Shown: positions 56,228-64,000 of the stretch, piece by piece | Numbering within the stretch: position 1 is the first letter of the stretch | Layout: every line of letters begins with the position of its first letter | DNA from: Undibacterium hunanense | GTDB lineage: Bacteria; Pseudomonadota; Gammaproteobacteria; Burkholderiales; Burkholderiaceae_D | DNA length: 64,000 nt | Assembly (NCBI RefSeq): GCF_014284335.1 | Contig: NZ_JACOGF010000007.1 | Coordinates: 124,001-188,000 of the forward strand | Reading direction: 5' to 3' | Notes under the pieces: generated by a model | Database searches by the model: none | Seen by the model: the letters and a program-made list of their open reading frames with translations, nothing else | Told to the model about the DNA's origin: nothing | Made by a program: the position numbers and the translations under genes

Positions 56228-57139
56228 ATGCATTTTGATCAACTACGCCGCATGGCCCTGTTTGCCCAGGTTGTGCGGCATGGCTCTTTTTCCGCCGCTG
56301 CCAGGGCAATGAATCTTGCTACTTCGGTCCTCAGTACCGCAGTTTCGCAGCTGGAAGACGAACTGGGCGTGCGCCTGCTGCACCGGACCACGCGCCGCCT
56401 GTCACTGACAGAGCTGGGCCAGGATTTTTATAGCCGCTGCACAGACATGCTGGCATCTGCTGAAGCCGCGCAAAACCTGATTGCAGAAAGCTCGGGCGAC
56501 ATCGCTGGCAGGCTGCGCATTTCTGCGGCTTCCGATGTTGCCGACAATATTCTGCTGCCGGCACTGACACCCCTGACGCTGAAACATCCGAGGTTATTGC
56601 TGGATATACAGGTAGCCGACGATATCGTTGACATGGCAGCACAGCAAATCGACTTGTCGATACGCTCCGGCTGGATGCGCGATTCTTCACTGGTGGCACG
56701 CAAGCTGGCGGACCTGCATGAGGTGCTGGTGGCGGCCCCATCCTATCTGCAAAAACGGGGCATTCCACAGACACCAGATGATTTATCGCAACATCACATG
56801 ATCGGTATGACGAGACTGAATGATCCCTGCACTCTGAACCTGAAAAACGCAGCAGAGCATACAGTCAAAGTCAGCCTGCCTGCTGCCGCCATGACAGACA
56901 GCGTGCGGCTGTCTTCAGAAATGGCAATCAGCGGCTTTGGCCTGGCCCGCTTGCCCTCCTACGCAGCTGCCAACGCCCTGCGTGATGGCAGGCTGATTGC
57001 CGTGCTGAAAGACTGGACACTGCCGCTGGCCGGAGTGTATGCCGTCACACTGAAACGTGCCCTGCAACCGCAAAAAGTACAGGCTGCCATTGAGGCGCTG
57101 GGGGATTTTCTGGGGCCTGCTGCTGACCGAAACCAATAG
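56228..57139 (+). CDS. LysR-family transcriptional regulator
   Basis: A 303-residue regulator. The N-terminal helix-turn-helix (~1-65) reads MALFAQVVRHGSFSAAARAM, then TSVLSTAVSQLEDELGVRLLHRTTRRLSLTE split by the usual turn. The effector domain (~90-295) has ISAASDVADNILLPAL and SEMAISGFGLARLPSY. It belongs to the large CrgA/DsdC-like group with an unknown ligand. As LysR regulators usually control the divergent neighbour, the DsbA-family gene at 55434 is the likely target. Confidence 0.92.
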   Translation: MHFDQLRRMALFAQVVRHGSFSAAARAMNLATSVLSTAVSQLEDELGVRLLHRTTRRLSLTELGQDFYSRCTDMLASAEAAQNLIAESSGDIAGRLRISAASDVADNILLPALTPLTLKHPRLLLDIQVADDIVDMAAQQIDLSIRSGWMRDSSLVARKLADLHEVLVAAPSYLQKRGIPQTPDDLSQHHMIGMTRLNDPCTLNLKNAAEHTVKVSLPAAAMTDSVRLSSEMAISGFGLARLPSYAAANALRDGRLIAVLKDWTLPLAGVYAVTLKRALQPQKVQAAIEALGDFLGPAADRNQ

Positions 57140-57462
57140 CATTTGCAGCGACCAAAATAGTCAGCACAAATCAGCGGAAATCAGTGCAGATCAACGCAAA
57201 AATGTAACTTCAATACCGTTTACTTACAAAAAATTACACAACTATTTATATAGTTAAACTTAATATACGCATAGAATATCGAACCCGATTTTATTGCTTT
57301 TTAGCAAAACTTTTAGAAAATATTTTCGTCATTGCTTCTTCCTCCAGACATCAGCTTGCAGCGTCGCGGAATGAATCACGAAATGAATCACGAAATCGGG
57401 TTTTGTTTCAGGGTCGCTGCCTGCGCAGCATTGATTACTTTTCTGTTATTGAATTAAATGCC
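57140..57462. other. Intergenic region, no gene seen
   Basis: These 323 bases are AT-rich in the middle and contain a near-repeat GAATCACGAAATGAATCACGA at ~57371-57391 just before the next gene. No terminator or recognised operator was found. Confidence 0.4.
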
Positions 57463-57795
57463 ATGCTAATCGACGTCATCAAAAACAGTCTCAGAAATAT
57501 TTTCAGGGTACGCAACCAGCGCGCCGTGACACCCGCCGGCCCCAAACCTGCGTTTGGCAGCACCATCGTGCTCAAGCGATTAAAAATGCAATTAATCGTT
57601 CCCATCGACTATGAGCAATGGGACTGGCTGACCGAAAAAGGCTGGCGCACGCTGGACATGCGCCAAAACCGCCGTCGTTACTTCCGGGTACAAAGAAAAG
57701 CCGTCACCCGCCTGCTGCACGCCAGCCAGGACGACCGCGAAGCATTGCATCAGCAAATCGTGGAATATCGCTACGACAAAAAGCGCCTGCACTGA
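57463..57795 (+). CDS. Small basic protein, unknown
   Basis: A 110-residue, very basic cytoplasmic protein that I do not recognise (many Arg and Lys: RNIFRVRNQR, RQNRRRYFRVQRKAV, YDKKRLH). The core VPIDYEQWDWLTEKGWRTLDM is the best-formed part. The charge could suit nucleic-acid binding. ATG 57463 is preferred to the 57403 start because it removes a cysteine-rich, unlikely leader. Codon use matches the genome. Confidence 0.6.
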   Translation: MLIDVIKNSLRNIFRVRNQRAVTPAGPKPAFGSTIVLKRLKMQLIVPIDYEQWDWLTEKGWRTLDMRQNRRRYFRVQRKAVTRLLHASQDDREALHQQIVEYRYDKKRLH

Positions 57796-59375: not shown

Positions 59376-60770
59376 ATGCAGAATTTTAGTGACGACGCTC
59401 ACGTCCAGACCGGGGAAGACCTCGCTCTGCAGACGTATTTCAAAACTGGCATCACTCCTGACGACGTTTCCGCTGTATTCCCCCTGAGACGTGCCCAGCC
59501 TGTATTGCAGGCGTTCACGGCGCTGTTTCATGGCGGATTCAACGGTGTATTACTACGCCTGCTGGTCTTGCGTGAACTGACAGCAGACGTGGAAACACCG
59601 TCGCTGAGCCGTGCCGATATCAATACCAAACTGGCCTATCTGGAACCGGACGCGCTGGAAACCGTGCTGTCGCGCCTGCGCACCACCGGTTTGCTGATCT
59701 GGGATGCCAGTCAGTCTGTGTATCGCATCACCCCGACCGCCAGGAATGTGCTGGCGGCGCTGGAATCGCTGCTGCATATCGAAGAGCACAATGACCAGGC
59801 CGAAATGAGCTATATGCTGACCCAGGTCGCCGGTGCGCAGGCAGTGGGTGGCGTATCGGTAGAGCAGTTGCATCATCTGCTGGGACGGCTGATAGAACTG
59901 ACAGAAGAATTTTCGGATGCGATTGCCTCCGGTTCCGAATTCCAGTTGCGCACGGCCCAGCAAAAATGGCATACCGCCTGCGACTGGGTAGAAAAAGGCT
60001 CGCAGATCATTCATGCCATCACCAATGACAGCCGGGCCGATTCGGCCACCCACAAAGCGGCGCAGGCCATAGGCCGTGCCCAGAGTGCGCTGCTGAACAT
60101 GCAGGGCATGTTTTCGCGGGCCCTGAACCAGATCGAACGCCAGCGCGTGCATCTGGGGCAGTCTGGCCTGTCGACAACGGATATCAAGACCTGGCTCTTG
60201 CAAAAAGAAGACCTGGCATCCCTGGCAGACGATGCGCTGGCAAAGCCTGTGACGCCCATGTTTATCACGCCGTCAGAAATGATAGACGTGGCAGAAAGCG
60301 AATTACTGAGCCACCGCGTATCTGCCCTGGCCGGTGCCCTGCCTGCCGGTGAAAATGCACCGTCGGTCGCCAATGAAGACAGCGATGCCCTGCATGAACT
60401 GGATCACTGGCTGGCCTTGCTGACTGAAGCCGATGCCAGCGACAAGCCGATAGTCTTGCAGGATATCTTGCTGCCATCGAGTTTTGCAATTGCTTCTTAC
60501 CGCGCCTCCATGCTGCCCTTGCTGGGCGACGCCAATGAATCTGCCTTGCAGGGTGCCACGGCTATTCTGGCCCGTCTGCCGCTGGTATTCAATTCCAAAG
60601 ACAAAATGCAAAAGGTACATGATGATCATGTGGCCGCGATTTCCATCGCCAGCCTGAGTACCATACCGACTGTGGCCAGCACGCCAGCCACTAGGGTAAA
60701 AACGGCCACCGTCGCTGAACAAGCACCCTTGCCTTCTGCCACCTCAGCACCAACGAGAGAAACACCATGA
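59376..60770 (+). CDS. Kleisin/MukF-like subunit of a condensin-type complex
   Basis: A 464-residue soluble protein that I place by architecture and context. Residues ~40-135 look like an N-terminal winged helix (VLLRLLVLRELTADVETPSLS, LEPDALETVLSRLRTTGLLIWD). A long helical region (~135-290) follows, like the MukF helical bundle. A short C-terminal domain (~335-400, LHELDHWLALL) and an Ala/Pro/Thr tail end the protein. The stop overlaps the next start (ATGA), and an SMC-like ATPase gene comes third. The order matches mukF-mukE-mukB / mksF-E-B and jetA-B-C. Exact family membership needs profile searches. Confidence 0.65.
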   Translation: MQNFSDDAHVQTGEDLALQTYFKTGITPDDVSAVFPLRRAQPVLQAFTALFHGGFNGVLLRLLVLRELTADVETPSLSRADINTKLAYLEPDALETVLSRLRTTGLLIWDASQSVYRITPTARNVLAALESLLHIEEHNDQAEMSYMLTQVAGAQAVGGVSVEQLHHLLGRLIELTEEFSDAIASGSEFQLRTAQQKWHTACDWVEKGSQIIHAITNDSRADSATHKAAQAIGRAQSALLNMQGMFSRALNQIERQRVHLGQSGLSTTDIKTWLLQKEDLASLADDALAKPVTPMFITPSEMIDVAESELLSHRVSALAGALPAGENAPSVANEDSDALHELDHWLALLTEADASDKPIVLQDILLPSSFAIASYRASMLPLLGDANESALQGATAILARLPLVFNSKDKMQKVHDDHVAAISIASLSTIPTVASTPATRVKTATVAEQAPLPSATSAPTRETP

Positions 60771-61549
60771 CCGAAGATGCACAAATCCTGATCGCCCGCT
60801 TGCTGGCGCACCAGACCCTGCGCCGTGAAGACAAGCTGGTCAAACGTGCGCTGTCAGATGAAATATTCCGCACAGAAATCGACACACGTCTGAAAGCCTG
60901 CGGCATGAAGTTTGTTGATAACGTGTATGCCGACTATGTCACCCTGGCACTGACACGCGATAGTGAATCCAAAGTATTCGGCACCAAAGAAACCTGGCAA
61001 AACAATAATTTCGGCCTGGCACGCGACGGTGTGGCCCTGCTGGTCGTGTTGTGGTCGCTGATTATTTTGCCCAAGCGTGAACGCCAGGAAGCCCATCAAC
61101 TGGCAGAAGAAGACCAAAACGATATGTTCGGCAAGGACAAACCCATGCCGCGTGCAGAAGATACCTCGATAGGTATTTCTTACCGTGCCCTGCTGGCAGA
61201 CTTTGGTGAAAAACTGGGCAAGAAAACCCGTATGGACATGAACCTGGGCCAGTTGGCACGCGTCGGTTTTATCGAGCGCAAGGCAGACCTGATACTGGAA
61301 GGGCCGTTGCTGGATTTGCTGATGGATACCGATACCCTGAAAGACCGCATCATCAATGGTGCGCTGTCAGATATTTTCCAGATCCCGGCACCGCGCACAC
61401 CAGCCATCATCGAACCCGCAGATAGCATTGAGCCAGTTGCTGCAGCCGCAGCAGGCGAAGACGACACAACGCAAACTGCCGCAGATATCCAGGTTGATGC
61501 CGCTACTGACAGCAATGCTGATCTCAACATCCATACCGGAAAAGAATAA
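60767..61549 (+). CDS. MukE/JetB-like accessory subunit of a condensin-type complex
   Basis: A 260-residue protein. Residues 1-215 are compact and largely helical with a likely winged-helix pair (ILIARLLAHQTLRREDKLVK, then YRALLADFGEKLGKKTRMDM and LARVGFIERKADLILEG). This fits small subunits such as MukE, MksE or JetB (DUF4194-like). The last 45 residues are an acidic, disordered Ala/Asp/Thr tail. It overlaps the upstream gene by 4 bases and is followed 5 bases later by the SMC-like gene, so all three are translated together. The role, bridging kleisin and ATPase, is inferred. Confidence 0.65.
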   Translation: MTEDAQILIARLLAHQTLRREDKLVKRALSDEIFRTEIDTRLKACGMKFVDNVYADYVTLALTRDSESKVFGTKETWQNNNFGLARDGVALLVVLWSLIILPKRERQEAHQLAEEDQNDMFGKDKPMPRAEDTSIGISYRALLADFGEKLGKKTRMDMNLGQLARVGFIERKADLILEGPLLDLLMDTDTLKDRIINGALSDIFQIPAPRTPAIIEPADSIEPVAAAAAGEDDTTQTAADIQVDAATDSNADLNIHTGKE

Positions 61550-61554
61550 GAACC

Positions 61555-64000
61555 ATGTTTCATATCAAATCGCTGGAACTTGTCCATTGGGATTATTGGC
61601 AACGCATCAAGAACATCCCGCTGGATGCCAAGATCATCACCATCGCCGGGCAAAATGGCTCTGGTAAAACCACCTTGCTGGATGCCTTGCGCACCCTGTT
61701 TGGCCTGGAATGTTCGATGGGACGTTCATATAAACATTATGCCCGTCACTCTGGCCAGCAAACGGCATGGATACGCGCAGTGGTGGATAACAGTGCGGTG
61801 GGCCCGCAGATTTCCAACCGCCCTTTCCGCATGTCGGGCCTGTATGAAGATGAAGTTACGCTGTTCTGCAAGATAGAAAAAAATGGCGGTGACTGGAAGC
61901 GCCAATACCTGATGCGCAGCGGCAAAACCGAAATAGAAGAAGTGCAGGAAGCGAATGACTGGCTGGGTGTGGAAAGCTATCGCAAGCGCCTGTCACATGC
62001 CGGTTTGTCGAATGCCATGGGCAAGGTGCTGGCACTGGAACAGGGGGAGACTGACAAGCTGTGTGAATACGCACCACGCCAGTTGCTGGACCTGGTGTTC
62101 CAGGTATTTGGCGACAAGGAAGTGCTGGATGCCTATGATGATGCGAAACGCCATCAGCGTGATACAGAAACCGAATTGCAGCGTTTTGAAACAGAACTTG
62201 AAGGTGCAAAAACCAACCTCGAAGGCTTGCGCCTGCGCGTTGCCAATTACCATCAATATGAAAGCCTGAGCAAGGAAAAACGCGATCTGCAGGAAGAGAT
62301 ACTGCCCACCCTGCAATACCATGAAGCACTGGAACAGGCTGGCAGCACCAGCCAAACCCTGCGTGCCAGCAAGCGTTTCCTGAAGACGCAAGATCATGCG
62401 CTGTCTGACCGTCGCCAGCACCTGGCGCAACAGGCGCAGCAAGTGTCCGATGCCAAGCAGGCAGAAGCCGCACTGGAAACAGAAGAATCATCCTTGCGTG
62501 AAAAGCTGGGACAGATCAACAGCAAACTGAAGCCGCAAGAAAGCCTGCTGGAACAAAAGGCGCGTTTGCAAAAACTGGCCGCCGAAGCGGATGCCGATGT
62601 CGCCAATATCGCTGACGATCTGGAGAAAAAAGAAGCCGAGCTGTCACGCCAGAAACTGGAACGTGATGCCCTGACCCAGCGTATCGCTGGCGAGATGGAA
62701 ACCATCGCCGCCCTGCAAGGTAAATCTGCCCTGCCCGATCCGGAAAATGTGCGCCAGATGCGCCGTGCCCTGACGGATGCCAATATCCCGCATTGCATGT
62801 TGCCAGAGATCGTCGAAGTCACCGATCCAAAATGGCAGGCCGCAGTGGAAGGTGTATTGCGCGGTTATACCTCAGTCATCTTGTTGGACAAGGCAACTGA
62901 CGCCTCTGCTGCTTACCGCATTGGTGAAAAACAGCGTTACAGCCACTTTATCGTGCCAGACCGCATCAGCGCACCGGTGGTCAAGGACCAGAGCCTGCTG
63001 TCTGTCGTCAACTTCACCGGTCAGGCTCCGGGCTGGCTGATCGAGCAATTGCAGCGCATTGATACCGTAGGTTCGATTGAACTGGGCATGAAGTTGCCGA
63101 AGAACCAGGAATGGATCACGCCTGACGCCTATCATTTCGAGCGCCGTGGTGGCCGTTCGCTGTTCGTTGAAGTGTCGCGCTATCGCTTTGGTAATGCGGG
63201 CCGTACCCAGCGCCTGGAAGCCTTGCTGAAGTCTTTGCCGCGCCTGCAATCGCAAGAAGATGTGCTGACCATGCAGATCAGCAAACTGGCAGGTGAAATC
63301 AGCGCCTACAAGGCACGTCTGGCAGGTGTGGATGCGGCAAAAGAACTGAGTGCCCGTCATGCGGAATTTGAAGAAGCCAGCCGCAATACTCAGCCGCTGA
63401 AACAACAGCGCATGGAAGTCGGCGGCCGTCTTGGAGAAATCGCACCTTTGCTGAAAGCCGCCACCGAACAACGCTCGGTCGCCCATCTGAAATGGGAACA
63501 GGCCAAGGCAGCGATTGCCGATGCGGAAGCACAATTGCGCACATCAGAAAAACGCCATGCCGAAGAACGCAAGGTCCAGTTTGAAACCCTGCGTGCCATG
63601 CGTGATACCTGGCATACCCTGCCGCATAACTGGAAACGTGCCTCGCACCGCAAGGAACTGGTGGCCGAACATGAAAACGTCCATCAGATCGAATTACGCA
63701 TACGCAGCCTGACCAATAACCTGGCGCGCGATGACTGGGAAACCGATTCCACCGTCGTCGATCAGTACACCCGCCTGAATGCCCTGCTGCAAGGCCGCCA
63801 GGCAGAAACCGATGAACGTCGCTACCAGAATAACCGGGCGATAGAAGCCACCGTGAATGCCCGCGCCGCCTATATGGACAGATTGCGCTTCACGATCAAG
63901 TCGTACAGCAAGAACATCAAACAACTCGGTGAATTGGCAGGCATAGAAGTACATACCGACCCGGTCAAGCTGGAAAATGACGACATACAACTGGCCCAGG
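61555..64000 (+). CDS. SMC-like ATPase of a condensin-type complex, N-terminal part
   Basis: Open from the ATG at 61555 to the right edge (at least 815 codons). The head begins FHIKSLELVHWDYWQRIKNI and the Walker A is GQNGSGKTTLLDALR. A coiled coil (~170-395) leads to a globular hinge-like region (~410-520, MLPEIVEVTDPKWQAAVEGV), and a second coil (~555 to the end) returns. The arms are short, as in MksB or JetC rather than canonical SMC. The Walker B half of the head lies outside the window. Such ATPases extrude DNA loops for chromosome organisation (MukB/MksB) or recognise plasmids (Wadjet JetC). Which one applies depends on the next gene: a JetD/MksG-type nuclease would indicate defence. 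Confidence 0.8.
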   Translation, partial: MFHIKSLELVHWDYWQRIKNIPLDAKIITIAGQNGSGKTTLLDALRTLFGLECSMGRSYKHYARHSGQQTAWIRAVVDNSAVGPQISNRPFRMSGLYEDEVTLFCKIEKNGGDWKRQYLMRSGKTEIEEVQEANDWLGVESYRKRLSHAGLSNAMGKVLALEQGETDKLCEYAPRQLLDLVFQVFGDKEVLDAYDDAKRHQRDTETELQRFETELEGAKTNLEGLRLRVANYHQYESLSKEKRDLQEEILPTLQYHEALEQAGSTSQTLRASKRFLKTQDHALSDRRQHLAQQAQQVSDAKQAEAALETEESSLREKLGQINSKLKPQESLLEQKARLQKLAAEADADVANIADDLEKKEAELSRQKLERDALTQRIAGEMETIAALQGKSALPDPENVRQMRRALTDANIPHCMLPEIVEVTDPKWQAAVEGVLRGYTSVILLDKATDASAAYRIGEKQRYSHFIVPDRISAPVVKDQSLLSVVNFTGQAPGWLIEQLQRIDTVGSIELGMKLPKNQEWITPDAYHFERRGGRSLFVEVSRYRFGNAGRTQRLEALLKSLPRLQSQEDVLTMQISKLAGEISAYKARLAGVDAAKELSARHAEFEEASRNTQPLKQQRMEVGGRLGEIAPLLKAATEQRSVAHLKWEQAKAAIADAEAQLRTSEKRHAEERKVQFETLRAMRDTWHTLPHNWKRASHRKELVAEHENVHQIELRIRSLTNNLARDDWETDSTVVDQYTRLNALLQGRQAETDERRYQNNRAIEATVNARAAYMDRLRFTIKSYSKNIKQLGELAGIEVHTDPVKLENDDIQLAQ

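Follow-up and report, generated by a model that had tools for sequence, protein, structure and literature searches.

Organization of the locus

At the right-hand end of a 64,000-nucleotide (nt) stretch of the genome of Undibacterium hunanense, a soil and water bacterium, lie three genes that we refer to as F, E and B and that form a condensin-like operon (Table 1). The whole stretch analyzed (part of contig NZ_JACOGF010000007.1) is called the window here. A sequence-only reading of the window had reported three genes with overlapping or 5-nt junctions at this place, and that is what we find: F and E overlap by 4 nt, and 5 nt separate the stop of E from the start of B. The frame of B continues past the end of the window, and extension of the contig to the right gave a full-length protein of 942 amino acids (aa) (L002:3556-6384; G000:C86:185555-188380, G000 being the host genome of 6.28 Mb in 108 contigs). 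The C-terminal remainder past the window end is encoded at L002:6001-6384 (G000:C86). The closest named relatives of B, those of U. pigrum and U. umbellatum, have 98% identity to it.

Table 1. Features of the F-E-B operon, with positions in the window.
Feature	Position	Strand	Remarks
F, putative kleisin-like subunit (MksF/JetA position)	59376..60770	+	464 aa
E, predicted KITE subunit (MksE/JetB type)	60767..61549	+	260 aa, ~200 conserved
B, predicted SMC ATPase (MksB/JetC type)	61555..64000	+	815 of 942 residues inside the window
Walker A motif of B, GQNGSGKT, residues 32-39	61648..61671	+	From a 20-row alignment
Hinge region of B, residues about 395-555	62737..63219	+	Approximate bounds, read from alignments

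Subunits of the predicted complex

B is predicted to be a structural maintenance of chromosomes (SMC) ATPase with a split head (Walker A, signature and Walker B) and a central hinge. Its match to Pfam SMC_N passed the cut-off (48.7 bits against 40), and SMC_hinge matched residues 417-484 below its cut-off (15.2 bits against 22.5). A hinge so placed, as the earlier reading had put it about 400 residues in, implies that the arms of this protein are short. Across 20 aligned rows, G32 and N34-T39 of the Walker A motif are invariant and position 33 is variable. The signature (DGEASGGQQV, residues 834-843) and the Walker B stretch (FVFIDEP, residues 863-869), both past the window end, are invariant or nearly so, except for E836. 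The top solved structure for a 20-row profile of B was JetC of the Wadjet system of Pseudomonas aeruginosa PA14 (8dk2_C, E-value 3.3e-10), with SMC1 ranked below it, and the hinge region of B aligned by hhalign with the JetC that the host itself encodes elsewhere (columns 351-573, E-value 3.6e-7). The MukB N-terminal family, PF04310, scored 14.9 bits, below its cut-off of 23, in keeping with the earlier remark that the start of the head did not look like canonical MukB. RecF, LmuB, AriA and other ABC ATPase models also match B. These matches would suit an ordinary ABC ATPase operon for repair or defence (RecF-, SbcC- or Lamassu-like) unrelated to condensins, an explanation that we consider highly improbable beside the hinge and the ranking of JetC.

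The E subunit is predicted to be a tandem winged-helix KITE protein, based on a structural model (mean predicted local distance difference test score of 65.6) whose best fold matches were the JetB proteins of two Wadjet structures, with other KITE proteins below them. Searches of both E and F against Pfam and PADLOC-DB 2.0.0 gave no families at E-values up to 1. DUF4194 was matched by four of the nine members of the E alignment (best E-value 1.5e-4) and by five of 20 in a wider set (best E-value 5.7e-4); the two of these matches inspected fully scored 17.4 and 17.6 bits, below the curated cut-off of 32.7. Two listed homologs of E carry the UniRef name "DUF4194 domain-containing protein". A JetB-like IFDR motif was sought near the start of E and gave no clean marker.

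F is a putative kleisin. Its model has an N-terminal winged helix, a long helical middle and a C-terminal mixed segment, a layout that we take to be that of MukF-like kleisins, as a resemblance rather than a proof of identity. NCBIfam gave two matches only, both far below their cut-offs. VIA-align returned mostly winged-helix regulators, and the lack of MukF or JetA among its 50 rows excludes nothing. Sequence searches of solved structures with E and with F, as single sequences and as profiles, returned no JetA, JetB, MukE or MukF. The affinity to Mks and Wadjet systems proposed from the sequence alone is nonetheless upheld, since E folds like JetB in the model and B is nearest to JetC, hinge included.

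Conservation and distribution of the operon

B was present in 40 of the 97 sampled genomes of the wide taxon family, as a single copy in each. Identities to the window copy were 66-100% for 37 of these (the window's own included) and 44-45% for the other three. The B-bearing genomes span 16 of 44 genera, and in 12 of the 16 every sampled genome has B. A scan of named genomes yielded 394 stretches coding for relatives, from which 80 loci were kept, belonging to Oxalobacteraceae genera or to metagenome-assembled genomes labelled Oxalobacteraceae, Burkholderiaceae or Burkholderiales. The order F-E-B was found in 76 of the 80; the other four lack F, or F and E, and have a contig that begins 166-754 nt before B. 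The same order is kept in four distant loci (in L117 the E gene was seen by tblastn only). This constancy of gene order indicates that the operon is not a chance product of how the sequence was read. Beyond the family, E was found in 62 of 399 genomes (31 of 158 genera) in a sample of the order and in six of 398 in a sample of the phylum, and a class-wide search found B in at least two of 369 genomes, a lower bound because two candidates per genome were scored under a strict limit. Janthinobacterium, Massilia, Duganella and Undibacterium, mostly environmental genera, all carry the form of the operon that lacks a nuclease gene (see below).

The operon is under purifying selection. In six Undibacterium comparisons the ratio of nonsynonymous to synonymous substitution rates (dN/dS; Nei-Gojobori method, NG86) was 0.021-0.048 for B, 0.054-0.107 for F and 0.055-0.234 for E, ratios that are rough because several dS values exceed 1. 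B was rare on plasmids, with matches in two of 72,556 records (E-value 1e-20), and none of the 93 pattern matches from a single scan of viral contigs was a relative. The names shown for 240 listed proteins, many of them nameless or with shortened names, did not include MksB. In each of two Variovorax plasmids, one half of an SMC gene resembling B lies next to an IS1071 transposase (L122:6025-7488 and L123:6010-8561). On the RA8 plasmid, one of these two, the half gene is followed by a JetD-like gene with a 4-nt overlap.

Absence of the nuclease from the host operon

No JetD/MksG gene, of the TOPRIM type for which the sequence-only reading proposed a search to the right, was found after B in the extended contig; the first sizeable open reading frame (ORF) there, of 488 aa, lies on the opposite strand. 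Relatives of the operon elsewhere do have such a gene. It directly follows B in L118 (Tahibacter has the nearest named homologs of the B of this locus), L023 and L026, and in 12 of another 53 loci that were retrieved; two of the 53 are without B and one (L149) has an open B frame. In that last locus no stop interrupts the 2117 codons before the stretch ends, which points to a fusion or to an error of frame or assembly. Three JetD queries against the 80 Oxalobacteraceae-type loci gave no match, eight of these loci having less than 600 nt after B.

Pfam misses the JetD of L118, so PF09983 alone would be unreliable for finding an orphan nuclease and a JetD profile of this family was used. Among 66 whole genomes searched altogether, the profile matched none of the 51 taken as JetD-less, G000 included, and all 15 presumed to bear JetD, including six that had supplied rows to it. 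In two of the JetD-bearing genomes the profile had a second match, elsewhere than at the B locus (G875:C28:29498-30046 and G954:C171:8089-9087); in G954 the JetD copy beside B is interrupted by a contig end. The sole JetD_C match in G000 belongs to a separate type I Wadjet with complete JetABCD on contig C64 (L120:3362-10065; best PADLOC E-values 4e-94 to 0). The ORFs beside that system read, by eye, like a type I restriction-modification system. ScpA was also found in G000, in a search that did not extend to Smc or ScpB. With JetD neither after B nor, for this family, anywhere in the genome, the earlier suggestion of an anti-plasmid system is unsupported at the window locus.

The JetD proteins of the related operons form one family. 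PADLOC calls JetD1 (E-values 1e-10 to 1e-21) in the chromosomal loci L118, L150 and L160 and on one Variovorax plasmid. ENxxxFE and KxEQE are kept in all 15 aligned JetDs and DxDP in 14 of them (DxHP in L139), which we take to be the TOPRIM residues. Identities of the operon JetDs to that of L118 are 34-47% (tblastn); the type I JetD of G000 shares only 17-22% with them. The F and E proteins of the L118, L150 and L160 operons matched no PADLOC model at E-values up to 0.01, so that in these three JetD-bearing operons the branch escapes PADLOC's kleisin and KITE models.

In 14 loci the next ORF overlaps the stop of B by 4 nt, is 333-342 aa long and has a signal-like start, making it a candidate coupled partner (L010, L012, L013, L022, L061, L075, L077, L083, L085, L089, L091, L096, L103 and L108). 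Ten of these loci are from Janthinobacterium, and some may represent the same genome. Alternative effectors after B in JetD-less operons were considered and dropped, the same-strand ORFs there differing between clades. Names given to ORFs after B by eye, from the ORF starts only, were 23S rRNA methyltransferase, ProB and lysyl-tRNA synthetase.

History of the nuclease

To place JetD on the phylogeny of B we used a tree of 66 rows (quick search, with support from the Shimodaira-Hasegawa-like approximate likelihood ratio test, SH-aLRT), 15 of them JetD-bearing and 51 JetD-less. It omits L145 and L158, which lack B, as well as L149 with its open frame and the bulk of the Oxalobacteraceae loci; the latter contribute 13 rows if the three of L178-L180 are counted with their group, and 12 by clade count. 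JetD requires at least eight changes on this tree, five of them forced by starred branches. None of 500 shuffles of the labels gave as few (mean 13.7), so JetD is clustered on the tree and yet scattered. Drawn with a midpoint root, the tree has 12 maximal JetD-less clades; the window's group, with its 12 rows, is one of them. The deep joins are unsure, because the program flagged long branches that join one another.

Within the supported clades, the trees of JetD and B agree. The identities of the two proteins correlate across 14 operons (Mantel r 0.91, p 2e-4), a value to which the near-identical L160 group contributes. More careful trees of B and of JetD share the starred clades L139+L150+L152, L172+L176+L177 and the L160 group, and no starred clades are in conflict. 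In one case the loss of JetD is seen directly. L025 has 88.8% DNA identity, from upstream through B, to the JetD-bearing L023 of the same genus; at L025:10177-11340 an intact B is followed by a stub of JetD and then by an array of a 185-nt repeat in five copies in register. The stub matches the first 47 residues of the JetD of L026 (46.8% identity, E-value 3.9e-9 against that stretch alone).

Taken together, the scatter, the agreement of the trees and the stub favor an old JetD after B that was lost many times. Probably this happened in many lineages including the Oxalobacteraceae, with F, E and B retained, and with gains possible in some clades. In every clade but that of the stub, the direction of change is something that we infer. 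Several observations pull away from this history. Gain and loss are not distinguishable by the parsimony counts; the deep order is open both in the JetD tree and in the B tree of the JetD-bearing rows, so that one recruitment per clade is possible; the JetDs of L160, L161, L167 and L169 are nested in a mostly JetD-less clade; and L023 and L026 have B proteins that are 93% identical and JetDs that are only 50% identical, which indicates that JetD has also been exchanged.

The same observations can be read as recruitment, with a three-gene condensin as the ancestral state, JetD taken up once or more and the JetD-bearing operons as a newer defence, a history compatible with a condensin function for the window operon. 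The JetD-less majority (51 of 66 rows), the nested L160 group, the swap between L023 and L026 and the restriction of the JetD/B agreement to within clades would all fit. We nevertheless find recruitment doubtful. The operon JetDs form one family, an outcome not expected of repeated uptake from separate origins; L025 supplies at least one loss that is observed directly; and numerous members of the Wadjet group at large possess JetD, according to PMC7617805.

Function of the operon

We propose that the operon encodes a Wadjet-group complex that lacks its nuclease and would work as an accessory condensin of the MksBEF type, an interpretation to which we assign a probability of roughly two-thirds. 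In such a complex, two B proteins would be joined at the hinge, and F, with E bound, would bridge them. ATP binding and hydrolysis would power DNA entrapment and loop extrusion on the chromosome. A JetABC-like core minus JetD would be a DNA-loop motor only, and beside Smc-ScpAB it may help to organize or segregate the chromosome. JetD/MksG, the component that makes such a motor cut plasmids, is absent, which makes an accessory condensin the most likely function. The earlier reading had offered a lineage-specific condensin as its second option, and this fits better than its anti-plasmid option, because the operon occurs once per genome, is found without exception among the sampled genomes of 12 of its 16 genera and is under purifying selection. 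The gene set thus behaves as a single-copy core set in most of its genera, although not in all, and has no similarity to MukBEF of the kind that would mark it as a normal member of that group.

Some results sit less comfortably with this proposal. The operon is patchy in the four remaining genera (six of 14 genomes), and three of the 40 B matches have an internal stop. The structural match of F is to a winged helix only and comes from a weak model (predicted template modelling score, pTM, of 0.37). Alignments by hhalign of F with the host's own JetA and of E with its own JetB yielded nothing, and no residue of E or F cleanly separates JetD-bearing from JetD-less operons.

The patchiness also bears on whether the operon might still serve in defence, using loop extrusion to recognize foreign or small circular DNA before silencing it, blocking it or borrowing another nuclease. 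JetD-bearing relatives look like plasmid-cutting systems, and the type I JetD of G000 could in theory be shared with the operon. That JetD, however, is only 17-22% identical to the JetDs of this family, and a defence role sits poorly with one copy per genome, complete representation in 12 genera, strong purifying selection and the scarcity of relatives on plasmids and, in one scan, their absence from viral contigs. We therefore regard it as unlikely.

Extending the accessory condensin proposal to the family as a whole, the family may form a previously unrecognized branch within the Wadjet group, whose single SMC core exists in two states across the Burkholderiales and the Tahibacter-like relatives, cutting plasmids where JetD is present and acting as an inherited chromosome condensin where it is not, with the switch made by repeated and ongoing loss of the nuclease. 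We hold the chances of this broader scheme to be even. The family offers material on which it can be examined, namely close relatives that differ in whether they have the nuclease gene, a case in which a stub of it is left and agreement of the trees within clades, so that the step from a weapon to an organizer of the chromosome can be studied directly.

Surroundings of the operon

The sequence-only reading described the DNA to the left of the operon as decayed accessory DNA, and our results agree in part. Between 58000 and 59499, most 500-nt steps have a G+C content of 0.41-0.44, within a low stretch that begins at 57000, and the steps flanking that stretch on both sides have 0.51-0.58. A small ORF (57403-57795) inside this stretch resembles, by eye only, a protein that clusters beside the operon in 10 relatives, which would speak against decay.

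Comparison with known systems

Parts of several published accounts bear on the proposal. JetABC is described as extruding plasmid DNA, which JetD then cuts (excerpts of PMC12647877 and PMC10586767). MksBEF of P. aeruginosa is thought to have lost JetD (excerpt of PMC10586767) and organizes the chromosome beside Smc-ScpAB (excerpt of PMC7485682). A catalogue of Wadjet-group operons includes several members without MksG/JetD and lists its operons in Data S1 (excerpt of PMC7617805). Nuclease-less members of the group and the derivation of MksBEF from JetABCD by loss of JetD are therefore already published (same excerpts of PMC7617805 and PMC10586767), and a 2023 review regards as unresolved how Wadjet arose and how it is related to the other SMC complexes. 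The literature searched does not name the present family or describe its JetD pattern; the family may be included in Data S1 of PMC7617805, which lay outside that search.

MukBEF differs from the window operon in several respects. B has 942 aa, compared with 1486 for the MukB model, and falls short of the PF04310 cut-off; in addition, G000 keeps ScpA, whereas Smc-ScpAB is described as having given way to MukBEF (excerpt of PMC10586767). The likeness to Wadjet (JetABCD or MksBEFG, types I-III) lies in the predicted JetB fold of E, the nearness of B to JetC and the JetD-like gene of related operons. It stops at the JetD/MksG TOPRIM nuclease, which the window operon lacks, and at F and E, which the JetA and JetB models of PADLOC-DB 2.0.0 do not recognize.

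The operon probably does not belong to the Pseudomonas lineage of MksBEF, since no credible match to E was found there. A 20-row profile of E gave one match (E-value 0.0068, 33 positions), which is not credible, in 298 genomes of 19 genera from a family taken as Pseudomonadaceae by an OprF match of its genome G119 (positions 1-183/184), P. aeruginosa's own presence in that sample not being established. In organization, MksBEF is nevertheless a known system that the operon resembles. The two share the gene set and an SMC protein with short coiled coils (Petrushenko et al., 2011, as relayed in excerpts of PMC4255302, PMC7485682 and PMC10586767), and the P. aeruginosa form, according to the same excerpts, has no nuclease and coexists with Smc-ScpAB. 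An F-E-B set without a nuclease and with a short-armed SMC is what the window operon has.

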